A stretch of 64,000 bases of DNA from Geodermatophilus obscurus (GTDB taxonomy: Bacteria; Actinomycetota; Actinomycetes; Mycobacteriales; Geodermatophilaceae): contig NZ_FRDM01000005.1 in NCBI RefSeq assembly GCF_900143215.1, positions 186,001 to 250,000 of the forward strand, in the 5' to 3' direction. Made by a program: the position numbers and the translations under genes. Shown here in pieces: positions 8,483-64,000 of the stretch (position 1 is its first letter; each line of letters opens with the position of its first letter). Below the pieces are notes generated by a model. It was not told the DNA's origin. It did no database searches and saw only the letters and a program-made list of their open reading frames with translations.

Positions 8483-9618
8483 CCGGCCATCGTCTCCCGC
8501 GCGACCGGGATGGCGCCGAGCGGGCGGCCGCGCCAGGACAGCGTGCCCCGCCGCCGCCCGGCGACCGACCCGGCCAGCAGGACGTCGAACAGCAGCATCG
8601 ACAGCGGGTGGGCCAGCGAGTCCGGCCAGATCCGGCTGCCGGTTGCCGCGGCCGACACCGCTCGCCCCGCCACGCCCGCCGCGTAGCCGACGAGCCCCGC
8701 CCGTGACCCGCGCAGCGCGGCGAGGGCGGGCAGCACCCAGACCGCCGTCAGCCCGGCCGCGACCGCCACGCTCGCTCCCGGCGACCCGCCGACCGACGCC
8801 CACAGCGACTTGGCGTAGCCCGCTCGCAGCGCCGGCCAGCCGTCGTACATCCGGCAGGCGGCCAGCCGCGATCCGTCGACCGGCACCGCCCGCCCCCCGG
8901 CCCGCTTCACCGCCCGCGCCAGCGCGACGTCCTCGATCACCTCGCCGCGCACCGCGCCGTGCCCGCCGGCCCGCGCGTACGCCGACCGCCGGACGACCAG
9001 GAACTGGCCGTTGGCCGCGGTCAGCGACGGCCGCCGGGACCGCTCGGCCAGCCGCACCGGCAGGGTGGTGATCCACAACCAGGGGCCGAGCGGCTGCACG
9101 AGGCGCTCGGCCGCCGTCGCGGTCACCGGCCGCGGCCAGGGGGAGACCAGGTCCAGGCCGTGCGCATCGAGGACGGCGACCGCGCCGGCCACCGCGTCGG
9201 GGAACAGCCGGACGTCGGCGTCGAGGAAGACCAGCACGCCGTCGTCCGTCTCCTCGCCGGTGGCCGCCCCGGTGGCGCAGGCGTGCGGCTTGCCCAGCCA
9301 GCCCCGCGGCGGGTCGGCGATGGCGACCAGGCACACCCGCGGATCGGCCACCGAGCGCACCACGTCGGCGGTGCCGTCGGTCGAGCCGTCGTCCACGACG
9401 ACCACGCGCAGGTCGGGCACCCCCTGCTGGGCCAGCACCGCGGTCAGGCAGCCGCCGATCTGCGCCTCCTCGTCGCGCACCGGGAGGACGACGGTGACCG
9501 GCCGGCGCACCGGCGGCGGCCCGGCCGGGGGACGGCGTACCAGCGCCACGTTGACCGCCGCGTGCAGCGCGCCGGCGACGGCCGCGCCAGAGAGGACCCA
9601 CAACGGCCGGCCGGTCAC
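8479..9618 (-). CDS. Family 2 glycosyltransferase, CruG-like
   Basis: A 379-residue GT2 enzyme: a short N-terminal membrane helix, then VTVVLPVRDEEAQIGGCLTA, VVDDGSTDGT, the metal-binding FLDADVRLFP, and GEVIEDVALARAVK as the acceptor/QxxRW-like region. C-terminal hydrophobic helices follow. Immediately upstream is a CruF-like carotenoid hydratase, and CruF-CruG pairs make glycosylated acyclic or monocyclic carotenoids, so a carotenoid 2'-glycosyltransferase is the best guess. The GTG start at 9618 receives its ribosome-binding site and stop/start coupling from a family B minicistron. Confidence 0.72.
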   Translation of the reverse strand: MTGRPLWVLSGAAVAGALHAAVNVALVRRPPAGPPPVRRPVTVVLPVRDEEAQIGGCLTAVLAQQGVPDLRVVVVDDGSTDGTADVVRSVADPRVCLVAIADPPRGWLGKPHACATGAATGEETDDGVLVFLDADVRLFPDAVAGAVAVLDAHGLDLVSPWPRPVTATAAERLVQPLGPWLWITTLPVRLAERSRRPSLTAANGQFLVVRRSAYARAGGHGAVRGEVIEDVALARAVKRAGGRAVPVDGSRLAACRMYDGWPALRAGYAKSLWASVGGSPGASVAVAAGLTAVWVLPALAALRGSRAGLVGYAAGVAGRAVSAAATGSRIWPDSLAHPLSMLLFDVLLAGSVAGRRRGTLSWRGRPLGAIPVARETMAG

Positions 9619-9695
9619 GAGCCCTCCTCGCTGGCGCTCGTCGGCGTCGTGACCGGGGGTGCTGTGTCCATGCGTGACCTCGCGAGCTCGGTCAC
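9615..9695 (-). repeat. Family B minicistron repeat (26 codons) before the CruG-like gene
   Basis: The GTG overlaps the TGA of the CruF-like gene, and its TGA overlaps the GTG of the glycosyltransferase. The 26-codon frame starts VTELARSRMD and ends TSASEEGS. The 5' end is an imperfect palindrome around TCGCGAGCTC, and GCGAGGAGG near the 3' end serves as the ribosome-binding site of the next gene. The same unit recurs at 23.1-23.35 kb and, diverged, elsewhere. Whether the peptide is made or only the coupling matters is unknown. Confidence 0.7.
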
Positions 9696-22180: not shown

Positions 22181-23122
22181 TCAGACGCCGGAGAGCAGCC
22201 GTACGTGCCAGGTGCGGCCGTGCGCGGGGTGCACCGCCCGGCAGGTCAGCGGCGCCGACTCCTGCGACGGGCGGCTCTCGACCTCGGTGACCACGTCACC
22301 GTCCGGCCCGGCCAGGGTGACCACCCACCGCTCGATCTCGGCTCCGGCCGGGGTCAGCCGGCGCACGTCGCGCGGCAGCAGGTCGTCGACACCGAGCAGC
22401 GAGAGCTCCGCGCGGGCGGTGTGCTGGGCCGCCTGCGCCGGCGCGGGCACCCCCGACCGGCCGCGCAGCCAGGGCAGCGCGACCCGGCCGGCGGCGTGCG
22501 CGGCGACCAGTTCGGCGCCGTCGTCGGGCACCTGCCCGTAGTAGAAGCCGTGCGGCAGCACGAGCACGTTGCTGGCGAACCGGCAGCCGCCCAGGTGGCT
22601 GCACTCCCAGGCGTCGTCGGTGGGCATCGTCCGGGCCAGCGGCCGGCCGCGCAGCGCGCAGCACGCGTCGTGCCCGCCGTGCGCGCACACCAGGTAGAGC
22701 GGGTCGTCGGTGCGCGTCCCCACCGACCCGTCCCACGGGACGTCGACCAGTTCGGCGTCGGTGTCGCGCACCGACCACCACACGCCCAGCGCGCCGGGCC
22801 GGCCGTCGACGTAGGCCCAGCGCCGCTGCGAGTCGGCCAGCCGGTCGCCGGGGCGGCGGACCAGCAGCACCCGCACGCCCTCGACCCGTGCCCGGTGGGT
22901 GAGTCGTGGTGCGACGGCCTGGTCGAAGCGGGACTGCGTCAGGGCGTCCTTGCCCCACGGACCGGGCTGCTCCACCAGCAGCCAGCGCTGCGCCGGCGAC
23001 GCGGTGGCCACGCAGGAGTCGCCACGGACCAGCGCCTGCACCGAGCAGCGGTCCGGATCGAGCCGTCCTGCAGGCAGTCCCGGCGCTGCCGCGACCTGGC
23101 AGAAGTCGGCCGGAGCGCTCAC
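22181..23122 (-). CDS. Sucrase/ferredoxin-like (thioredoxin-fold) protein
   Basis: A 313-residue sucrase/ferredoxin-like family protein. Its C-terminal thioredoxin-like ferredoxin part shows CAHGGHDACCALRGRPL and ECSHLGGCRFASNVLVLP, giving the cysteines for a [2Fe-2S] cluster. The biological role is unknown. The GTG start at 23122 overlaps the stop of the last of three tandem family B minicistrons, which also supply the GAGGAGG ribosome-binding site. The next gene upstream on this strand is the JmjC-cupin oxygenase, another iron protein. Confidence 0.78.
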   Translation of the reverse strand: MSAPADFCQVAAAPGLPAGRLDPDRCSVQALVRGDSCVATASPAQRWLLVEQPGPWGKDALTQSRFDQAVAPRLTHRARVEGVRVLLVRRPGDRLADSQRRWAYVDGRPGALGVWWSVRDTDAELVDVPWDGSVGTRTDDPLYLVCAHGGHDACCALRGRPLARTMPTDDAWECSHLGGCRFASNVLVLPHGFYYGQVPDDGAELVAAHAAGRVALPWLRGRSGVPAPAQAAQHTARAELSLLGVDDLLPRDVRRLTPAGAEIERWVVTLAGPDGDVVTEVESRPSQESAPLTCRAVHPAHGRTWHVRLLSGV

Positions 23123-23199
23123 GTCCCCTCCTCGCCGGCGCTCGGACGGCCCGGAACCGGCCGTGCTGTACCCACGGGTGACCTCGCGAGCTCGGTCAC
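23119..23199 (-). repeat. Family B minicistron, tandem copy 3 (nearest the gene)
   Basis: A 26-codon frame, GTG to TGA, starting VTELARSPVG and ending PSAGEEGT. The TGA overlaps the GTG of the sucrase/ferredoxin gene. The tandem period is 77 bp, which is exactly 27 codons minus the 4-nt overlap. Confidence 0.75.
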
Positions 23200-23276
23200 G
23201 TCCCCTCCTCGCCGGCGCTCGGACGGGCCGGAACCGGCCGTGCTGTGCCCATGGAGAACCTCGCGAGCGCGGTCAC
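23196..23276 (-). repeat. Family B minicistron, tandem copy 2
   Basis: A 26-codon frame starting VTALARFSMG and ending PSAGEEGT. It overlaps copies 1 and 3 by GTGA. Its palindromic 5' end has two substitutions relative to the other copies. Confidence 0.75.
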
Positions 23277-23353
23277 GTCCCCTCCTCGCTGGCGCTCGGA
23301 CGGGCCGTGACCGGCGGTGCTGTGCCCATGGGTGACCTCGCGAGCTCGGTCAC
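23273..23353 (-). repeat. Family B minicistron, tandem copy 1
   Basis: A 26-codon frame starting VTELARSPMG and ending PSASEEGT. The GTG lies 19 nt after the oxygenase stop. This copy is the closest of the three to the single unit at 9615-9695. Confidence 0.75.
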
Positions 23354-24683: not shown

Positions 24684-24943
24684 GCGGAACCGTCCGCGCC
24701 ACCGTCGGCACCGCCGTCCGCGCCACCATCGGCACCGCCGTCCGCGCCGCCGTCCGCGCCGCCGTCGGCACCGCCGTCGGCACCGCCGTCCGCGCCGCCG
24801 TCGGCACCACCATCGGCCGAGCCGTGGCCGGCGCCGCTGTCGGCGCCGCCGTCGGCGCCGCCGTCCGAACCGCCGCCCGCCGCGCCGCCGTCGGCCGGGC
24901 CGTGGCCTTCGGTGCTGGTCATGTCGTCGTCGTCGAGAGCCAT
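24680..24943 (-). CDS. Small (DGGA)n tandem-repeat peptide
   Basis: An 87-residue peptide. Residues 1-43 begin MALDDDDMTSTEG and are Gly/Asp/Ala rich. Residues 44-87 are ten DGGA units plus a final DGSA. Codons vary synonymously between units (GAC/GAT, GGC/GGT, GCC/GCG) while the amino acids do not change, so the protein sequence appears selected. The ATG at 24943 has a GGGGAGA upstream. The stop overlaps the oxygenase start. No family is recognised: it could be a modified peptide precursor, a calcium-binding acidic peptide or a structural tail. No signal peptide or cysteine is seen. Confidence 0.68.
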   Translation of the reverse strand: MALDDDDMTSTEGHGPADGGAAGGGSDGGADGGADSGAGHGSADGGADGGADGGADGGADGGADGGADGGADGGADGGADGGADGSA

Positions 24944-25159: not shown

Positions 25160-26368
25160 GTGTCGTCGGGGTCGTCGTCGCGTGCCGCGGGCTGCACCGT
25201 GCTGCACGTCGACATGGACGCGTTCTTCGCCAGCGTCGAGGTGCGCCGCCGGCCGGAGCTGGCCGGGACGCCGGTGATCGTGGGCGGGGCCGGCAACCGC
25301 GGGGTGGTCACCTCGGCCACGTACGAGGCACGCCGCTACGGGGTGCACGCGGCGATGCCCACCTCCCGCGCGCTGCGGTTGTGCCCCACGGCGACGGTGC
25401 TGCCGGGGGACGTGGCGCTCTACGCCGAGGTGTCCCGCTCGGTCATGGCGCTGTTCCGCTCGATCACGCCGCTGGTCGAGCCGCTGAGCCTGGACGAGGC
25501 GTTCCTCGACGTCTCGGGCGCCGGGCGGCGGCTGGGCGACGCGGTCGCGATCGGCGAGTACCTGCGCGCCCGCGTCTTCGACGAGCAGGGCATCACCTGC
25601 TCGGTCGGCGTGGCCGGTACCAAGTTCGTGGCCAAGCTCGCCTCCACCGCCGCCAAGCCCGACGGGCTGCTGGTCGTCCGGCCGGCCGAGGTCATGGGGT
25701 TCCTGCACCCGCTGCCGGTCGGCGCGCTGTGGGGGGTGGGCGCCAGGACCGAGGAGGTGCTGCTGCGGCTGGGGCTGCGCACCGTCGGCGACCTGGCCCA
25801 CGTGCCGGTGCGCACGCTGCAGCGGGCGGTGGGCCCGGCGGCCGGCGCGCACCTGCACGAGCTGTCCTGGGGGCGCGATCCGCGCCGGGTGGTGCCCGAC
25901 GAGCCGGAGCGGTCCACCGGGCACGAGGAGACCTTCGGCACCGACGTCGACGACCCCGCCGTCATCCACCGGGAGCTGCTGCGGCTGGCCGAGCGGACGG
26001 CGGGCCGGCTGCGCTCGGGCGGCTGGCTGGCCCGCACGGTGACGATCAAGGTCCGCTTCGCCGACTTCGCCACGATCACCCGCAGCCGCACCCTCGACGT
26101 CCCGACCGACGTCGGGCAGGAGCTCTACGACACCGCCCGCGTCCTCTTCGACGCCCTCGGCCTGGACCGGGCCCGCATCCGGCTGGTCGGCGTGCGCGCC
26201 GAGCGCCTGGTGCGGGCCGGGTCGACCCCGCGGCAGCTGGAGCTGGGCGCCCGGGAGCACGGCCGCCGGGAGGCCGAGCTGGCCGCCGACCGGGCCGCCC
26301 GCCGGTTCGGCGCCGGTGCGGTCCGCCCGGCGACGCTGCTGCACCGGGACGGGCAGCGCGCCCCCTGA
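25160..26368 (+). CDS. dinB: DNA polymerase IV (Y family)
   Basis: A 402-residue Y-family polymerase for translesion synthesis. The catalytic acids are in LHVDMDAFFASVE (D18, D20) and SLDEAFLDVSG (D112, E113); SVGVAGTKFVAKLAS and LWGVGARTEEVLLRLG follow, then the little-finger domain. A weak clamp-binding motif QLELG lies near the C-terminus. GTG 25160 has GGGAGGG upstream. A LexA box places it in the SOS regulon with dnaE2. The last codons are embedded in a 14-bp tandem repeat that continues past the stop. Confidence 0.9.
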   Translation: MSSGSSSRAAGCTVLHVDMDAFFASVEVRRRPELAGTPVIVGGAGNRGVVTSATYEARRYGVHAAMPTSRALRLCPTATVLPGDVALYAEVSRSVMALFRSITPLVEPLSLDEAFLDVSGAGRRLGDAVAIGEYLRARVFDEQGITCSVGVAGTKFVAKLASTAAKPDGLLVVRPAEVMGFLHPLPVGALWGVGARTEEVLLRLGLRTVGDLAHVPVRTLQRAVGPAAGAHLHELSWGRDPRRVVPDEPERSTGHEETFGTDVDDPAVIHRELLRLAERTAGRLRSGGWLARTVTIKVRFADFATITRSRTLDVPTDVGQELYDTARVLFDALGLDRARIRLVGVRAERLVRAGSTPRQLELGAREHGRREAELAADRAARRFGAGAVRPATLLHRDGQRAP

Positions 26369-26412
26369 CCCGCGCCCCCTGACCCGCGCCCCCTGACCCG
26401 CGGCACCCGACC
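26357..26412. repeat. 14-bp tandem repeat at the dinB 3' end
   Basis: CGCGCCCCCTGACC is repeated three times perfectly (26357-26398), followed by a degenerate fourth copy. The first copy contains the dinB stop codon, so the 3' end was duplicated without altering the protein. Confidence 0.8.
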
Positions 26413-26642
26413 CGCGGCACCGCCGCGACCGGCACCCGACGGGGCGGCCTCCGACCGGGTGGCGGGAACTCCGGCCGCACCCCGTTCGTCTCCCCGCCGA
26501 GGCCGTGGGCCACCCGCCGGGGTGATCACGGCGAGCCCGGCGCGGCTCGCCTTTCGCACCCGTCGGAGGGCTCGTATCCTCGGTGTCACCGACGGCGGGC
26601 ACCGCCGTCGGGTTCTTGGCTTTGGCCCACGTGGAGGTCGAC
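26413..26642. other. 5' region of the DUF3040 gene with hairpin
   Basis: A TATCCT at 26575-26580 is a plausible -10. Just after it, CCGACGGCGG (26589-26598) and CCGCCGTCGG (26602-26611) form a perfect 10-bp stem with a 3-nt loop, which would lie at the very 5' end of the mRNA, about 30 nt before the start codon. It may stabilise the transcript or attenuate it. Confidence 0.4.
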
Positions 26643-31368: not shown

Positions 31369-32349
31369 TCAGCGTCCGCGGAGGACGGGGACGGTCCTGA
31401 GCAGGTCGGTGACGACCTGCTCGGCGGTGCGGCGGGAGGCCGCGGCGTCCGGGGTCAGCAGCAGGCGGTGGGCGAGGACCGGCACGGCCATCGTCTGCAC
31501 GTCGTCGGGCAGCACGTGGTCGCGCCCGGCCAGCGCCGCGGTGGCGCGGGCGGTGCGCAGCAGCTGCAGCCCCGCGCGCGGTGAGGCGCCCAGCCGCAGG
31601 TCGGGGGAGCGGCGGGTGGCCTCGACCAGCGCCACGACGTAGCGGCGCACCGGCTCGGAGACGTGCAGCCGGCCGACGGCGGCGACCAGCGCGCGCACCC
31701 CGGCCGCGTCGGTGGCCGGCGTCAGCGCGGCCAGCGGGTCGGTGGTCACCAGGTCGTCGAGCATGGCCAGCTCGGCCTCGCGGTCGGGGTAGCCCATGGA
31801 GACCCGCGCGGTGAACCGGTCGCGCTGGGCCTCGGGGAGGGGGTAGGTCCCCTCCATCTCGATCGGGTTCTGGGTGGCCATCACGAGGAAGGGCCGGGCC
31901 AGCTCGTAGCTGACGCCGTCGACGGTGACCTGCCGCTCGGCCATGCACTCCAGCAGCGCCGACTGCGTCTTGGGGGAGGCGCGGTTGATCTCGTCGGCCA
32001 CGACGATGTTGGCGAAGACCGCGCCCGGCTTGAACTCGAACTCGCGGGTCTCCTGGTCGTAGACCGACACCCCGGTGACGTCGCTGGGCAGCAGGTCGGG
32101 GGTGAACTGGATGCGGCGCACGCTCGCGTCGACCGACGCCGCCAGCGCCTTGGCCAGGGTGGTCTTCCCGACGCCCGGCACGTCCTCGACCAGCAGGTGG
32201 CCCTCGGCCAGCAGCACGACCAGCGCCAGGTGGACGACCTCGGGCTTGCCGTGGACGACGCGGGCCATGTTCGCCGCGATGCGAGCGCCCTCCGCCGCGA
32301 CGTCGACCGGGGCCTCGGTCCCCGCGGCGGTCGGCGTCACCTCGGTCAC
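31369..32349 (-). CDS. MoxR-family AAA+ ATPase
   Basis: A 326-residue AAA+ ATPase. Walker A is EDVPGVGKTTLAK, Walker B IVVADEINRASPK, sensor 1 MATQNPIEMEGTYPLPEAQRDRF. MoxR ATPases act as chaperones that mature or activate partner complexes, here most likely the DUF58 and transglutaminase proteins of the same operon. The GTG at 32349 has GAGGGAGGAC upstream, contributed by a decayed family B unit. It is divergent from mraZ. Confidence 0.9.
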   Translation of the reverse strand: MTEVTPTAAGTEAPVDVAAEGARIAANMARVVHGKPEVVHLALVVLLAEGHLLVEDVPGVGKTTLAKALAASVDASVRRIQFTPDLLPSDVTGVSVYDQETREFEFKPGAVFANIVVADEINRASPKTQSALLECMAERQVTVDGVSYELARPFLVMATQNPIEMEGTYPLPEAQRDRFTARVSMGYPDREAELAMLDDLVTTDPLAALTPATDAAGVRALVAAVGRLHVSEPVRRYVVALVEATRRSPDLRLGASPRAGLQLLRTARATAALAGRDHVLPDDVQTMAVPVLAHRLLLTPDAAASRRTAEQVVTDLLRTVPVLRGR

Positions 32350-32449
32350 GCGTCCTCCCTCGCTGTCCCCGCGAGCGGGAGGTGCTCCCCGCCCGTCGGC
32401 CGCCGGTCCGACGGTGCTCTGCCGTGCGTGACCTCGCGAGCTCGGTCAC
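32348..32449 (-). repeat. Decayed family B unit before moxR
   Basis: The frame opens VTELARSRT with the same palindromic 5' end as the intact units, and it ends in a ribosome-binding site-like AGGGAGGAC next to the moxR GTG. Indels have removed the in-frame TGA overlap, so translation from it would run into moxR out of frame. Confidence 0.6.
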
Positions 32450-33242: not shown

Positions 33243-33762
33243 TCCCGACGTCCCGTTCCCCCGACCCCTCCAGGCCCTCCCCGCCGACCGAGCCGACTTC
33301 CCCGCGGCTCGACCGGACCGGACCGAGCCACCTTCCCCGTGGCTCGGTCCCCAGCGGCACCGGAGGAGACGCACCGCCCACCGGGCGCGCCGCCGGCCCC
33401 CACCGGCTGCCGCGCCCGCCCGTCCCCGCGGGGCTCCACCTGACGTACTTCCCCGACGCCAGGCGGGCCCCGCGGGGGGCGGCCGGGCGTCTGTCGTGGG
33501 TCGGGACCCCACCTCGCCCCACGTCCCCCACCCCGCCCCACCCACCCCGTCCCACCGACCACCCCGTCCCACCGACCACCCCGTCCCACCGACCACCCCG
33601 CCACACCCACCCCGTCCCGCCCTCCCACCCCGGGCGCCCCAGCAGCGTCCCCGAGGACCGGCGAAACGCCGCTGCGCTCCGCTCCCCGACCGCCGTCCAG
33701 CCCCACCATGGACGGGCCTCCGCGCCCCGAGGGCGCCCCGACCCGTTCAGGAGCCGCCGACG
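33243..33762. other. Long C-rich spacer between mraZ and rsmH
   Basis: No supported gene is present. At 33507-33554 there are several CCCCA/TCCCA motifs mostly 10 bp apart, which read on the minus strand as TGGGN, like MraZ boxes. At 33549-33599 a 17-bp unit (GTCCCACCGACCACCCC) is repeated three times. A reading frame upstream of rsmH is proline-rich noise. The last 100 bp hold the rsmH start with AGGAG at 33749-33753. Confidence 0.6.
33549..33599. repeat. 17-bp tandem repeat, three copies
   Basis: GTCCCACCGACCACCCC occurs at 33549, 33566 and 33583 without change. It lies in the mraZ-rsmH spacer. Confidence 0.85.
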
Positions 33763-34755: not shown

Positions 34756-34847
34756 GCGCCGCGGGGACGACGGCGGTCCGGACGACGCCGCACACGACGC
34801 CCCGGCCGCGGACGCGGCCGACCAGTGACCGTGAGGAGGCCGCATGA
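34752..34847 (+). repeat. Family B-type minicistron between rsmH and ftsL (31 codons)
   Basis: The GTG overlaps the rsmH stop and the TGA overlaps the ftsL ATG (ATGA). The C-terminal end RTRPTSDREEAA resembles the RTRPTSAGEEDE of the murG-murC unit and the TSASEEGS ending of the canonical repeat. It carries the GAGGAGG ribosome-binding site of ftsL. Confidence 0.6.
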
Positions 34848-44541: not shown

Positions 44542-44597
44542 GCGAGCCCGTGCCGGCGCGGACGCGGCCGACGAGCGCCGGCGAGGAGGACGAGTGA
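44538..44597 (+). repeat. Family B-type minicistron between murG and murC (19 codons)
   Basis: GTG overlaps the murG stop; TGA overlaps the murC GTG. The frame starts [10 protein letters not shown] and ends PTSAGEEDE. GGCGAGGAGG gives murC its ribosome-binding site. It is the shortest family member seen. Confidence 0.62.
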
Positions 44598-46063
44598 GCG
44601 CGGCTGCGGTGGCGGCGTGGGCCGACCCGGTGCCGAGCCTCGAGGAGCTCGGCGCGGTGCACTTCGTCGGCATCGGCGGCGCCGGGATGAGCGGCATCGC
44701 CCGCATCCTGCTGGCCCGCGGCGTACGCGTCTCCGGCAGCGACCGCCGCGACACCCCGACGCTGCTGGCGCTGCGCGCGCTCGGTGCCCGGGTGGAGCTC
44801 GGTCACGACCCGGGCCACCTGGGGGACGCCGACACCGTCGTCGTCTCCACCGCCATCCGCGACGACAACCCCGAGCTGGCCGCGGCCCGCGAGCGGAACC
44901 TGCGGGTGCTGCCCCGCGCGGTGGCGCTGGCCGCGGTGATGGCCGGCAAGCGCAGCGTCGCGGTGGCCGGCACGCACGGGAAGACCTCGACGACCTCGAT
45001 GCTCACCGTCGCGGTGCAGGCCTGCGGCGTGGACCCCTCCTTCGCCATCGGCGGCGACCTCAACGAGTCGGGCAGCAACGCGCACGCCGGCAAGGGCGAC
45101 GTCTTCGTCGCCGAGGCCGACGAGAGCGACCGCTCCTTCCTGCTGCTGGCCCCGCACGGCGCGATCGTCACCAACGTGGAGGCCGACCACCTGGACAACT
45201 ACGGCGACCTGGCCGCGGTCGAGGCCGCCTTCGACCGCTTCCTGCAGACGCTGGACCCGGCCGGCTTCCTCGTCCTGTGCGCCGACGACCCGGGCTCGGC
45301 GCGGCTGCGCACCGTGCCCACCCCGGCCCGGGTGCGCACCTACGGCACCGCCGAGGACAGCGACCTGCGGCTGGTCGACGTCGAGGTGGGCCCGGAGACC
45401 ACCGCCTGGACCGCCGTGCTCGACGGCGAGGTGCTCGGCCGGGTGTCGATCCGGGTGCCCGGCGAGCACATGGCCCGCAACAGCGCCGCCGCGCTGCTGG
45501 CCGGGCTGGAGCTCGGCCTGCCCGCCGAGGAGCTGGTCACCGGTCTGGGCCGCTTCGGTGGGGTGCACCGCCGCTTCGAGCTCAAGGGCACGGTCGGCGG
45601 GGTGCGGGTGTACGACGACTACGCACACCACCCGACCGAGGTCGAGGCGCAGCTGCGCGCCGCGCGGGCGGTCGCCGGCGCCGGCCGGGTGGTCGTGGCC
45701 TTCCAGCCGCACCTGTACAGCCGCACGCGAGAGTTCGCCGCCGCGTTCGGTGCAGCCCTCGGCCTCGCCGACGAGGTCGTGGTCATGGACGTCTACGGCG
45801 CCCGTGAGGACCCGGTTCCCGGCGTCACCGGCGCGATGGTCGCCGACGCGGTCGCCCTCCCGGCCGAGCGGGTGCACTTCGAGCCGTCCTGGTCGGCCGC
45901 GGCCCCGGCGCTGGCCGAGCGGGCGCGCCCCGGCGACCTGGTGATCACCATGGGCGCCGGCAACGTCTCCATGGTCGGCCCGGAGGTCCTCGAGGCACTG
46001 CGGGCCCGACTGGCGCCGCCCGGCTCGCCGGACGGTGGCGACCCGGGGGGTCCCGCGCGGTGA
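44594..46063 (+). CDS. murC: UDP-N-acetylmuramate--L-alanine ligase
   Basis: A 489-residue Mur ligase for the first amino acid of the stem peptide. HFVGIGGAGMSGIARILL at the N-terminus, the ATP loop GTHGKTST at residues 126-133, EADESDRSFL and DDYAHHPTEV are MurC-specific. It receives coupled translation from the family B minicistron upstream and overlaps ftsQ by GTGA. Confidence 0.96.
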   Translation: MSAAAVAAWADPVPSLEELGAVHFVGIGGAGMSGIARILLARGVRVSGSDRRDTPTLLALRALGARVELGHDPGHLGDADTVVVSTAIRDDNPELAAARERNLRVLPRAVALAAVMAGKRSVAVAGTHGKTSTTSMLTVAVQACGVDPSFAIGGDLNESGSNAHAGKGDVFVAEADESDRSFLLLAPHGAIVTNVEADHLDNYGDLAAVEAAFDRFLQTLDPAGFLVLCADDPGSARLRTVPTPARVRTYGTAEDSDLRLVDVEVGPETTAWTAVLDGEVLGRVSIRVPGEHMARNSAAALLAGLELGLPAEELVTGLGRFGGVHRRFELKGTVGGVRVYDDYAHHPTEVEAQLRAARAVAGAGRVVVAFQPHLYSRTREFAAAFGAALGLADEVVVMDVYGAREDPVPGVTGAMVADAVALPAERVHFEPSWSAAAPALAERARPGDLVITMGAGNVSMVGPEVLEALRARLAPPGSPDGGDPGGPAR

Positions 46064-62339: not shown

Positions 62340-63134
62340 GTGACTCCGGTCGGGCTGCCCGGCTCGCTCGCCGAGTGGGGCCCGGCCGCGCTGTCCGCCG
62401 TCGTCGTCGCCGGCTACCTGGTGGTCGGTGAGCCGTTCGTCGGCCACGTGCTGCACCGCCGCTTCGAGGGCCGGCTGCGCACCGACGACGGCGCGCGGCG
62501 GTCCTTCTACGCCCGGCTGCTGCTGCTGGAGTGGGGCCTGGCGGTGGTCGCCCTGGTGGTCTGGCTGTCGGCACCCGGGGTGGACGCCGGTGCCGTGGGG
62601 CTGCGCTGGCCGCAGTCCTGGCCCGGCCCGCTGGCCGTCGCGGCCACCGTCGCCGTCCTCGGCTTCGTCGTCGTCTCCACGCGGGCGCTGCGTTCGGGCG
62701 CGCTGGCGCAGGCGGGCGCCGAGCTGCGCCGGCCGGGGGAGGGGCGGCACGCCGAGCCGGCCGTGCACGCCACCCTGGCGCTGCTGCCGCGGACGACGGC
62801 GGAGCGGCGGCTGTTCACGCTGGTCGGGATCACCGCCGGCGTCTGCGAGGAGTGGCTCTACCGCGGGTTCTTCCTCGCCGTGGTGGCGGCGGCCGGCGGG
62901 GAGCTGCCGACACCGGTCCTGGTGGCGATCGGCGCGCTGGCGTTCGGGCTGGCGCACGCCTACCAGGGTGTCGCCGGCATCGTGACGACCGGCGTCCTGG
63001 GCGGCGTGATGGCCGTGCTCTACCTGGGCACCGGGTCGCTGCTGCTGCCCGTCGTGCTGCACGCGCTGATCGACCTGCGCTTCCTGCTGGTCCCCGCGTC
63101 CGCGCTGCCCGACGCCGTCCGGAGGCCCACGTGA
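62340..63134 (+). CDS. CPBP-family intramembrane metalloprotease
   Basis: A 264-residue membrane protein with about seven helices and the CPBP (Abi/CAAX) motifs: GVCEEWLYRG (EExxxR), AFGLAHAYQG (FxxxH) and LHALIDLRFL (HxxxD/N). It may process prenylated or other membrane peptides; relatives also act in bacteriocin self-immunity. The start is GTG 62340. Its TGA overlaps the GTG of a diverged family B unit. Confidence 0.85.
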   Translation: MTPVGLPGSLAEWGPAALSAVVVAGYLVVGEPFVGHVLHRRFEGRLRTDDGARRSFYARLLLLEWGLAVVALVVWLSAPGVDAGAVGLRWPQSWPGPLAVAATVAVLGFVVVSTRALRSGALAQAGAELRRPGEGRHAEPAVHATLALLPRTTAERRLFTLVGITAGVCEEWLYRGFFLAVVAAAGGELPTPVLVAIGALAFGLAHAYQGVAGIVTTGVLGGVMAVLYLGTGSLLLPVVLHALIDLRFLLVPASALPDAVRRPT

Positions 63135-63207
63135 GCGAGCGGGCCCACGCATGGACGCAGCAGGGTGGCGCGAACGCGCCGACGAGCGCAGCGAGGAGGT
63201 CGCGTGG
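63131..63207 (+). repeat. Diverged family B unit before dnaE1
   Basis: It begins with GTGA overlapping the CPBP stop, keeps the GCATGGAC, CGACGAGCGCAGCGAGGAGG and ribosome-binding site segments of the canonical unit, but has indels that break its frame. Confidence 0.55.
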
Positions 63208-63482: not shown

Positions 63483-64000
63483 GTGAGCACCCCGTCGTCC
63501 GACTCGTTCGTGCACCTGCACGTACACACCGAGTACTCGATGCTCGACGGCGCGGCCAAGCTGCCCGAGGTCACCAGGGCCGCCGCCGAGCAGGGGATGC
63601 CGGCGCTGGCGATGACCGACCACGGCAACGTGTTCGGCGCCTACGACTTCTACAAGCAGGCCAAGGCCGCCGGCGTGAAGCCGATCATCGGCATGGAGGG
63701 CTACTACACCCCGGGCTCGCGCTTCGACCGGGCGCCGTTCGACTTCGGCGAGAACCTCATCGACGAGGACGGCGAGGGCGGCTCCTCCCGCGGCAAGGCC
63801 GCCTACACGCACATGACGTTGCTGGCCCGCACGACGGAGGGGATGCACAACCTCTTCCGCATCTCCTCGATGGCGAGCCTCGAGGGGCAGTACCGCAAGC
63901 CCCGGTTCGACCGCGACCTGCTGGAGCGCTACGGCACGGGCCTGATCGCCACCACCGGCTGCCCCTCCGGTGAGGTCAACATGTGGCTGCGGGCCGGCAA
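63483..64000 (+). CDS. dnaE1: Replicative DNA polymerase III alpha subunit, 5' part
   Basis: The first 172 codons of the main replicase; the gene continues beyond the window. The PHP domain is intact here: FVHLHVHTEYSMLDGAAKL, MPALAMTDHGNVFGAYDFY and TGCPSGEVNMWL. In contrast, the SOS paralogue at 14291 has lost a PHP ligand. The GTG start at 63483 is preceded by GAGGAG. The rluD-to-dnaE1 arrangement is conserved in actinobacteria. Confidence 0.93.
   Translation, partial: MSTPSSDSFVHLHVHTEYSMLDGAAKLPEVTRAAAEQGMPALAMTDHGNVFGAYDFYKQAKAAGVKPIIGMEGYYTPGSRFDRAPFDFGENLIDEDGEGGSSRGKAAYTHMTLLARTTEGMHNLFRISSMASLEGQYRKPRFDRDLLERYGTGLIATTGCPSGEVNMWLRAG

Follow-up and report, generated by a model that had tools for sequence, protein, structure and literature searches.

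REP and BIME elements are accompanied by RAYT transposases of the IS200/IS605 type; REPs are extragenic and are not known to be tied to start codons. MITEs are short, non-autonomous and multicopy. MIRUs, the mycobacterial interspersed repetitive units that reportedly go back to Supply et al. in 1997, are used to type tuberculosis bacteria. In one paper MIRUs are given as 46-101 bp long, with 41 loci in H37Rv (PMC3914561), and in another the units at senX3-regX3 are 77 bp (PMC4213456). According to a 2025 review, MIRUs seem to be mobile, their insertion at a start codon couples an internal ORF at -4 nt, and their effect on expression is probably minimal (PMC12548453). The same review describes translational coupling by RNA unfolding, in which a hairpin over the downstream initiation region is opened by the upstream ribosome (PMC12548453).

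The genus Geodermatophilus comprises desert soil actinobacteria. Starting from a window of 64,000 nucleotides (the whole stretch of DNA that was analysed) of one Geodermatophilus obscurus genome, we describe a repeat family that is probably a relative of the MIRUs, a likeness set by published MIRU descriptions and not by sequence. The family matches the MIRUs in size (85 copies, mostly 77 nt, within the range of 46-101 bp), in place (operon junctions, in the same direction as the flanking genes, 71/76 downstream and 63/76 upstream), in its small ORF (open frame in 52/54) and NTGA overlaps at the ends (downstream 73/76, upstream 43/76), and in tandem copies at some loci, and therefore probably works like them. 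Presence or absence between species is a further likeness. Unlike MIRUs, the family has Geodermatophilus and its relatives as hosts, with 2-62 palindrome copies between congeners. It carries two co-varying start-codon hairpins, the second of which is fitted to each downstream gene; no description of such co-varying hairpins in MIRUs was found in the open-licence PMC literature. The unexpected part is this hairpin arm fitted to each host gene. Taken together, the likeness suggests that MIRU-like elements reach beyond Mycobacterium. With REP/BIME elements and their RAYT the family has in common that the repeats are small, palindromic, non-autonomous and multicopy, but the Geodermatophilus family is tied to start codons, which is not known of REPs. 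Like MITEs it is short, non-autonomous and multicopy; unlike them its unit has no unit-spanning terminal inverted repeats, is asymmetric and keeps a fixed orientation to genes. Compared with RNA-unfolding coupling, it is here a mobile repeat that brings the hairpin in, with an arm that varies to fit the gene.

A reading of the window from its sequence alone had proposed a single unit at 9615-9695 that links a CruF-like and a CruG-like gene. The unit is confirmed by the match of our model and by Pfam matches on both sides, the upstream neighbour being CruF-like (PF04240) and the downstream one a CruG-like glycosyltransferase (PF00535). Its 5' TGA is the stop of cruF, and the GTG at its 3' end (9618) is the start of cruG. 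The seed unit is built as follows:

9619..9695, minus strand: complete 77-nt unit at the cruF-like/cruG-like junction (model match 9613-9695, 82.5 bits, E 6.7e-25)
9692..9695, minus strand: GTGA overlap of the cruF stop TGA and the mini-ORF start GTG (the upstream coding frame, 500 codons open, ends at offset 1)
9674..9695, minus strand: hairpin 1, GTGACC-loop-GGTCAC, with the GTG start of the mini-ORF within the stem (covariation)
9644..9655, minus strand: internal arm of hairpin 2, which pairs with -5 to +6 around the cruG start (register 46, covariation of helix 2)
9623..9643, minus strand: conserved loop segment of hairpin 2, including the GAGGAGG ribosome-binding site, the last G of which is in the stem (slowest-changing part)
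9612..9623, minus strand: 3' arm of hairpin 2, with the last G of the Shine-Dalgarno (SD) motif, the spacer, the GTG start and the first cruG codons (complementarity and covariation)

Positions +4, +5 and +6 of the 3' arm fall within the downstream gene. No curated RNA family of Rfam matched at gathering threshold within the window, and the cruF-cruG unit had no match in plasmid or phage collections.

The first evidence for further copies, independent of any model, came from a 21-nt pattern of the 5' core, which matches the window four times; shuffled sequence would give 0.04 matches. Model R1 was then built from 25 copies of the own genome, including the seed, two units of a tandem array and the unit beside moxR. 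In the window R1 matches at 9613-9695, 23271-23353, 23194-23268, 23119-23193, 32344-32449, 63132-63206 and 44552-44598, and weakly at 34803-34847. The copies in the window besides the seed are:

23277..23353, minus strand: unit 1 of 3 of a tandem array (E 1.6e-22)
23200..23276, minus strand: unit 2 of 3 of the array (E 6.5e-14)
23123..23199, minus strand: unit 3 of 3 of the array, ending where a Suc_Fer-like gene starts (23122; E 8.7e-17)
32350..32449, minus strand: 100-nt unit before a MoxR-type AAA gene (start 32349), with an extra hairpin-like insert CACCTCCCGCTCGCGGGG (E 2e-14)
34803..34843, plus strand: probably the decayed 3' half of a unit, in front of the gene in the ftsL position (ATG 34844; 10.8 bits, E 0.015)
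44552..44593, plus strand: unit of which only the 3' half is present, followed by murC (GTG 44594; Mur_ligase match; R1 match 44552-44598, E 1.4e-6)
63131..63203, plus strand: decayed, orphaned unit after an ORF that we take to be CPBP-protease-like (R1 match 63132-63206, E 1.9e-8)

Dispersal of one minicistron-like unit to several operon junctions, as the sequence-only reading had it, is real: R1 matches at the loci it named, at some of them partially or weakly. That reading overlooked the array at 23119-23353 (a 77-bp repeat by Tandem Repeats Finder), which consists of three further, head-to-tail copies of the seed-unit family. Its statements that every unit ends at the next gene's start and that all units begin at the previous stop, where there is one, hold in part. 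The moxR-side unit (32344-32449) ends at the gene start, but no coding stop was found at its 5' end. The units before murC and at the ftsL position are in exact register with their starts (44594 and ATG 34844), but the former is a 3' half only and the latter a borderline 3' half (10.8 bits, E 0.015); the gene at the ftsL position is without a Pfam match. The unit assigned to dnaE1 is a real match but does not end at the start of dnaE: its final GTG opens 13 codons only, and dnaE starts at 63483, 277 nt further. It is the one exception to the rule of ending at a gene start among the four junctions named besides the seed.

The unit at 32344-32449 belongs to a sub-variant with an insert of about 24 nt, CACCTCC..GGGGG or similar, which is also found at C45:24247-24352 (L074) and in L170 and L196. 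Judged by its letters, this insert could pair with the SD in an anti-SD-like manner. A similar insert also occurs in a leader of congener G024 that has no recognisable unit (L378). The other tandem repeats of the window, 24690-24895 (12/36 nt), 26357-26416 (14) and 33528-33618 (17/34), are unlike the seed-unit family.

In the own genome (5.24 Mb, 112 contigs) R1 gives 85 matches at E<=0.0147, and the 21-nt core 40 matches against 1 for the reversed pattern. All 85 copies were checked with their flanks, using a codon model trained on 25 long ORFs of the window. Nine of the 85 are directly followed by another copy, in tandem, which leaves 76 non-internal copies. In seventy-one of these 76 the last position coincides with the start codon of a coding gene on the unit's strand, three fail and two lie too near a contig end; the same start test is passed by 24 of 2000 random 13-nt windows. 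The genome-wide profile search and tally against start codons that the sequence-only reading had called for thus places the copies at starts and on the unit's strand, and the outcome it had named as contrary, copies mostly off start codons and in random orientation, did not occur. GTGA or ATGA stands at the 3' end of 73/76 non-internal copies. At the 5' end, an upstream coding TGA lies within -8..+6 in 43/76, the remaining 33/76 failing this stop-overlap test, and a same-strand coding gene ends within -150..+80 of the unit in 63/76. The unit is 77 nt long in 56 of the 73 own units with a recognisable 5' end (12/85 were set aside), and in 52 of 54 units of 77 nt no stop interrupts the mini-ORF before its terminal TGA. 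Length variants stay in the phase of the mini-ORF in 6/17 own and 6/12 named units, without frame-keeping bias (manual count).

Because R1 itself contains the 3' start, a scan with the 5' palindrome only was added; it covered 80 of the 110 named stretches from a public-genome scan (L243-L272 were left out). Of 87 exact 5' palindromes at named loci, 70 are followed by the remainder of a unit with a start codon, 58 of these 70 at 77 nt. The genes downstream of units are unrelated to each other: 72 proteins long enough to scan contain 142 Pfam families, none of them in more than three. They include alanine racemase, a tRNA synthetase, MurJ and QcrA.

Four contigs of the own genome (C68, C35, C55, C45) begin or end in or beside units (L054, L056, L081, L091). 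The repeats therefore break the assembly, and the copy number of the own genome is a lower bound. At der (L300-L303), at the FGGY-kinase locus C17:38184 (L055) and at C52:60762 (L031) the empty relatives have ATG and the filled own copy has GTG; insertion may bias or replace the downstream start codon. For practical work, the units interrupt assemblies and can displace annotated start codons in Geodermatophilaceae.

The repeat family is real and genome-wide, with copy-number differences between species and empty sites. Counts of the 5' palindrome are 49 for the own genome and 2-62 for 25 congeners; the remaining family members that were searched have 0-8, and genomes from the rest of the order 0-1. 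The reversed control pattern is found in none of the 58 genomes. Empty sites in relatives, which were to be looked for according to the earlier reading, are present at the cruF-cruG, FAD-dehydrogenase, der and alr junctions. At cruF-cruG the unit is absent in 20/26 congeners, most of which have a bare GTGA; counted by eye, it is absent in 20/26 at the FAD-dehydrogenase junction, in 22/25 at der and in 21/25 at alr. Strict full units at the own-genome junctions (26 examined) are found at 13/25 compared in G024 and at 10/25 in G003, counts that are lower bounds because other unit lengths are missed, for example all those at the FAD-dehydrogenase junction. When flanks are set against the empty site, left and right copies share GTGA at C44:157611 and do not at C44:246826, where the empty site is GTGG; the two disagree, and no length is claimed for a terminal target duplication. 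Start-codon placement and empty sites support the earlier description of the unit as a cassette for ribosome binding and coupling that is mobile or copied. From its anatomy we infer that it couples the translation of the flanking genes, and it would be moved by an enzyme acting in trans.

Applied to 25 units, RNAalifold predicted pairs that include part of hairpin 2, a hint of pairing between an internal segment and the following start. Complementarity was scored between unit positions 38-51 and the unit's own downstream start region, against shuffled partners. The own set, taken from one genome only (49 units), scores 452.5 against 361.5 in shuffles (sd 8.3; z 11.0-11.1), and the named set (54 units) 521.0 against 410.5 (sd 8.8; z 12.5-12.7), the z of the named set being inflated to an unquantified degree because it includes some orthologous loci. 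In either set 0/5000 shuffles reach the observed score. When partners are shuffled only among copies of equal N5 and N3, z is 8.2 (own) and 8.7 (named). The columns +4, +5 and +6, inside the downstream gene, have z 5.3-8.1. Only register 46 stands out among 28 registers, the others lying between -4.2 and 3.0. The internal arm is specific to each copy and fits the start region of the gene that follows that copy.

Both hairpins were followed in a MAFFT alignment (A3) of 47 own units, L056 and L091 at contig ends being left out of the 49. Helix 1 has changes on both sides at 4/6 pairs, with 91.1% of cells paired, and helix 2 at 9/11 pairs. Over the stem pairs 84.2% of cells are paired against 24.9-45.7% when slid, and the covariation score is 0.403 against 0.034-0.097 for the slid versions. 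G-T cells are wobble pairs on the mRNA strand and A-C cells on the other strand; the former number 50 and the latter 20 (shuffles 63.0 and 38.6), an excess that favours pairing on the mRNA strand. Unit position 43 is mismatched with +3 in 34/47 copies, in 31/47 as G-A opposite the A of GTGA. ATG starts are accompanied by other arm letters, for example in the copies at der and C44:206605. Predicted start accessibility rises from 0.22 to 0.32 (own) and from 0.20 to 0.25 (named) when downstream genes are swapped; the predicted folding effect of the native downstream partner is modest.

Changes after insertion were examined at shared insertions of 77-nt units only, orthologue pairs with fewer than 54/77 identical positions being left out. 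Among 73 changed stem cells, 17 are compensatory double changes, 15 are one-sided and still paired, 34 are one-sided and broken, and 7 are double without both being paired. Compensatory double changes number 0-5 in 21 other registers, against 17 in the stem register. Gene-specific complementarity is accompanied by compensatory evolution. The 17 cells come from 8 loci and are not independent (alr with 3 and der with 2 probably represent one event each), and orthologue pairs of low identity (C30 56/77, C44:260573 61/77) may represent distinct insertion events. The best examples are der (ATGACC with arm CGGTC in G024, ATGAGC with arm CGCTC in G003) and C38:17733. Since at der the sister G015 as well as G025 and G016 are empty, loss or repeated insertion must be invoked there. 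At the FAD-dehydrogenase junction G024 and G025 have GTGACC against GTGATC in G000, G015 and G003, with the arm unchanged. Because 34 of the 73 cells are one-sided breaks, the stem is not strictly kept, and we read these patterns as real but moderate selection on it.

In 17 orthologue pairs the loop with the SD changes least (0.050 substitutions per site and pair), followed by the first 16 nt (0.059-0.076), and change is fastest in the middle, arm and spacer (0.176-0.212). The loop CGACGAGCGCC(A/G)GCGAGGAGG, at unit positions 52-72 (9623-9643), recurs in distant families. It is conserved far beyond what an SD needs and may be the recognition site of a mobilising enzyme or a ribosomal contact.

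We consider it likely that the family is a MIRU-like, non-autonomous mobile cassette, which a hairpin over the start codon, opened by the oncoming upstream ribosome, keeps nearly translation-neutral. A unit is about 77 bp long and lies directly upstream of a start codon, in most cases at an operon junction with a stop/start overlap (GTGA or ATGA). As the unit begins with GTGA, the upstream gene now stops within the unit's first codons. A mini-ORF of 26 codons starts at this GTGA, and its TGA overlaps the downstream GTG, which GAGGAGG or a variant closely precedes. A ribosome that has finished the upstream gene would reinitiate on the mini-ORF, cross it, terminate at the overlap and reinitiate on the downstream gene. 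Hairpin 1 would close the mini-ORF's own start. Hairpin 2 would pair the downstream start (-5 to +6) with the internal arm, leaving the SD mostly in the loop; it would keep the strong SD from firing alone and make the downstream gene depend on the arriving ribosome. Since the downstream gene would be ribosome-dependent in this way, insertion would be cheap for the host, which would put up with it in front of essential genes too. Start sequestration would be the selected function. A selfish repeat could colonise operons, even before essential genes, by mimicking the host's stop-start overlap. The matching of the arm to each gene provides natural replicates, with tens of copies per genome and empty sites in relatives, which suit the question of whether translational coupling is driven by sequestration of the start codon, as has long been discussed.

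The copy-specific arm could also be explained by the insertion process itself, which we think unlikely. The arm would pair with the target start in a mobile intermediate and pick the site, and complementarity would be a relic of insertion; guide/cleavage-site pairing in IS200/IS605 elements is a parallel. Nearly all insertions are at a start codon, and the arm matches +4 to +6 inside the downstream gene. At the FAD-dehydrogenase junction, moreover, GTGATCGAC is present in G016 although the site there is empty, and it fits the arm that the inserted copies carry, CGATCAC; in G024 and G025 the match was lost without compensation. These points are countered by the compensatory double changes after insertion (17 against 0-5; 8 loci, some maybe independent, in units 56-65/77 identical) and by positions -1 to -5, which belong to the unit and not to the old target, yet co-vary too. 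A wider form, to which we give the same low probability, has the arm as a reprogrammable guide to the start (about -5 to +6) that then becomes a gene-specific mRNA lock; the family would then be a guide-directed mobile element specialised for start codons, old in Actinomycetes, with MIRU as one branch. A little less probable again is quasipalindrome correction, in which replication template switching copies letters of the start region into the arm without selection. Such copying would yield concerted multi-base changes as at C44:260573 and C30:44460, but it should erase the mismatch at +3, which persists in 34/47 units. Many one-sided breaks persist as well, and G-T is kept better than A-C, which DNA copying would not favour.

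Two further explanations concern the peptide and the mobility. That the 26-residue peptide is a functional product is very improbable: the frame is open in 52/54 units of 77 nt, but at 76% GC a 26-codon open frame would easily arise by chance. In the 17 orthologue pairs, substitutions in the mini-ORF fall on codon positions 1/2/3 in 68/49/39 cases, which gives no sign of selection on the peptide, and codons with a single change alter the residue in 85 cases and keep it in 20. The peptide was dropped as a hypothesis after the codon-position count. Even smaller, in fact close to nil, is the chance that the units are not mobile at all and represent convergent, ordinary ribosome-binding sites sharing a motif. 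An SD and a GTGA overlap are common at bacterial operon junctions, but the 5' palindrome and the 20-nt loop are superfluous for an SD, yet the copies align over 77 nt, and the reversed pattern is absent from 58 genomes. Clean empty sites at orthologous junctions refute convergence. The MIRU-like cassette with a hairpin opened by the upstream ribosome is the reading we prefer.

Among open-licence PMC literature no paper on such repeats in Geodermatophilaceae was found, which is weak evidence of absence. Class-wide, R1 matches at E<=1e-5 in 10/394 genomes; two of these, one being the own genome, belong to the own family, and no genome of genus g19, which we guess to be Mycobacterium, is among the ten. 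Weak matches at the level of the order are mixed: several (L116, L121, L125, L130 and others) look like chance and were rejected, others (L113, L122, L114, L118) show the full architecture. Units of full architecture are present in loci of Blastococcus, Modestobacter, Kutzneria, Sciscionella and Pseudonocardia. They also occur sparsely in other families of the class, e.g. L351-L354, L360, L363, L113, L114, L118 and L122. On inspection of the letters, the arm in L114 and L118 is complementary to the unit's own start.
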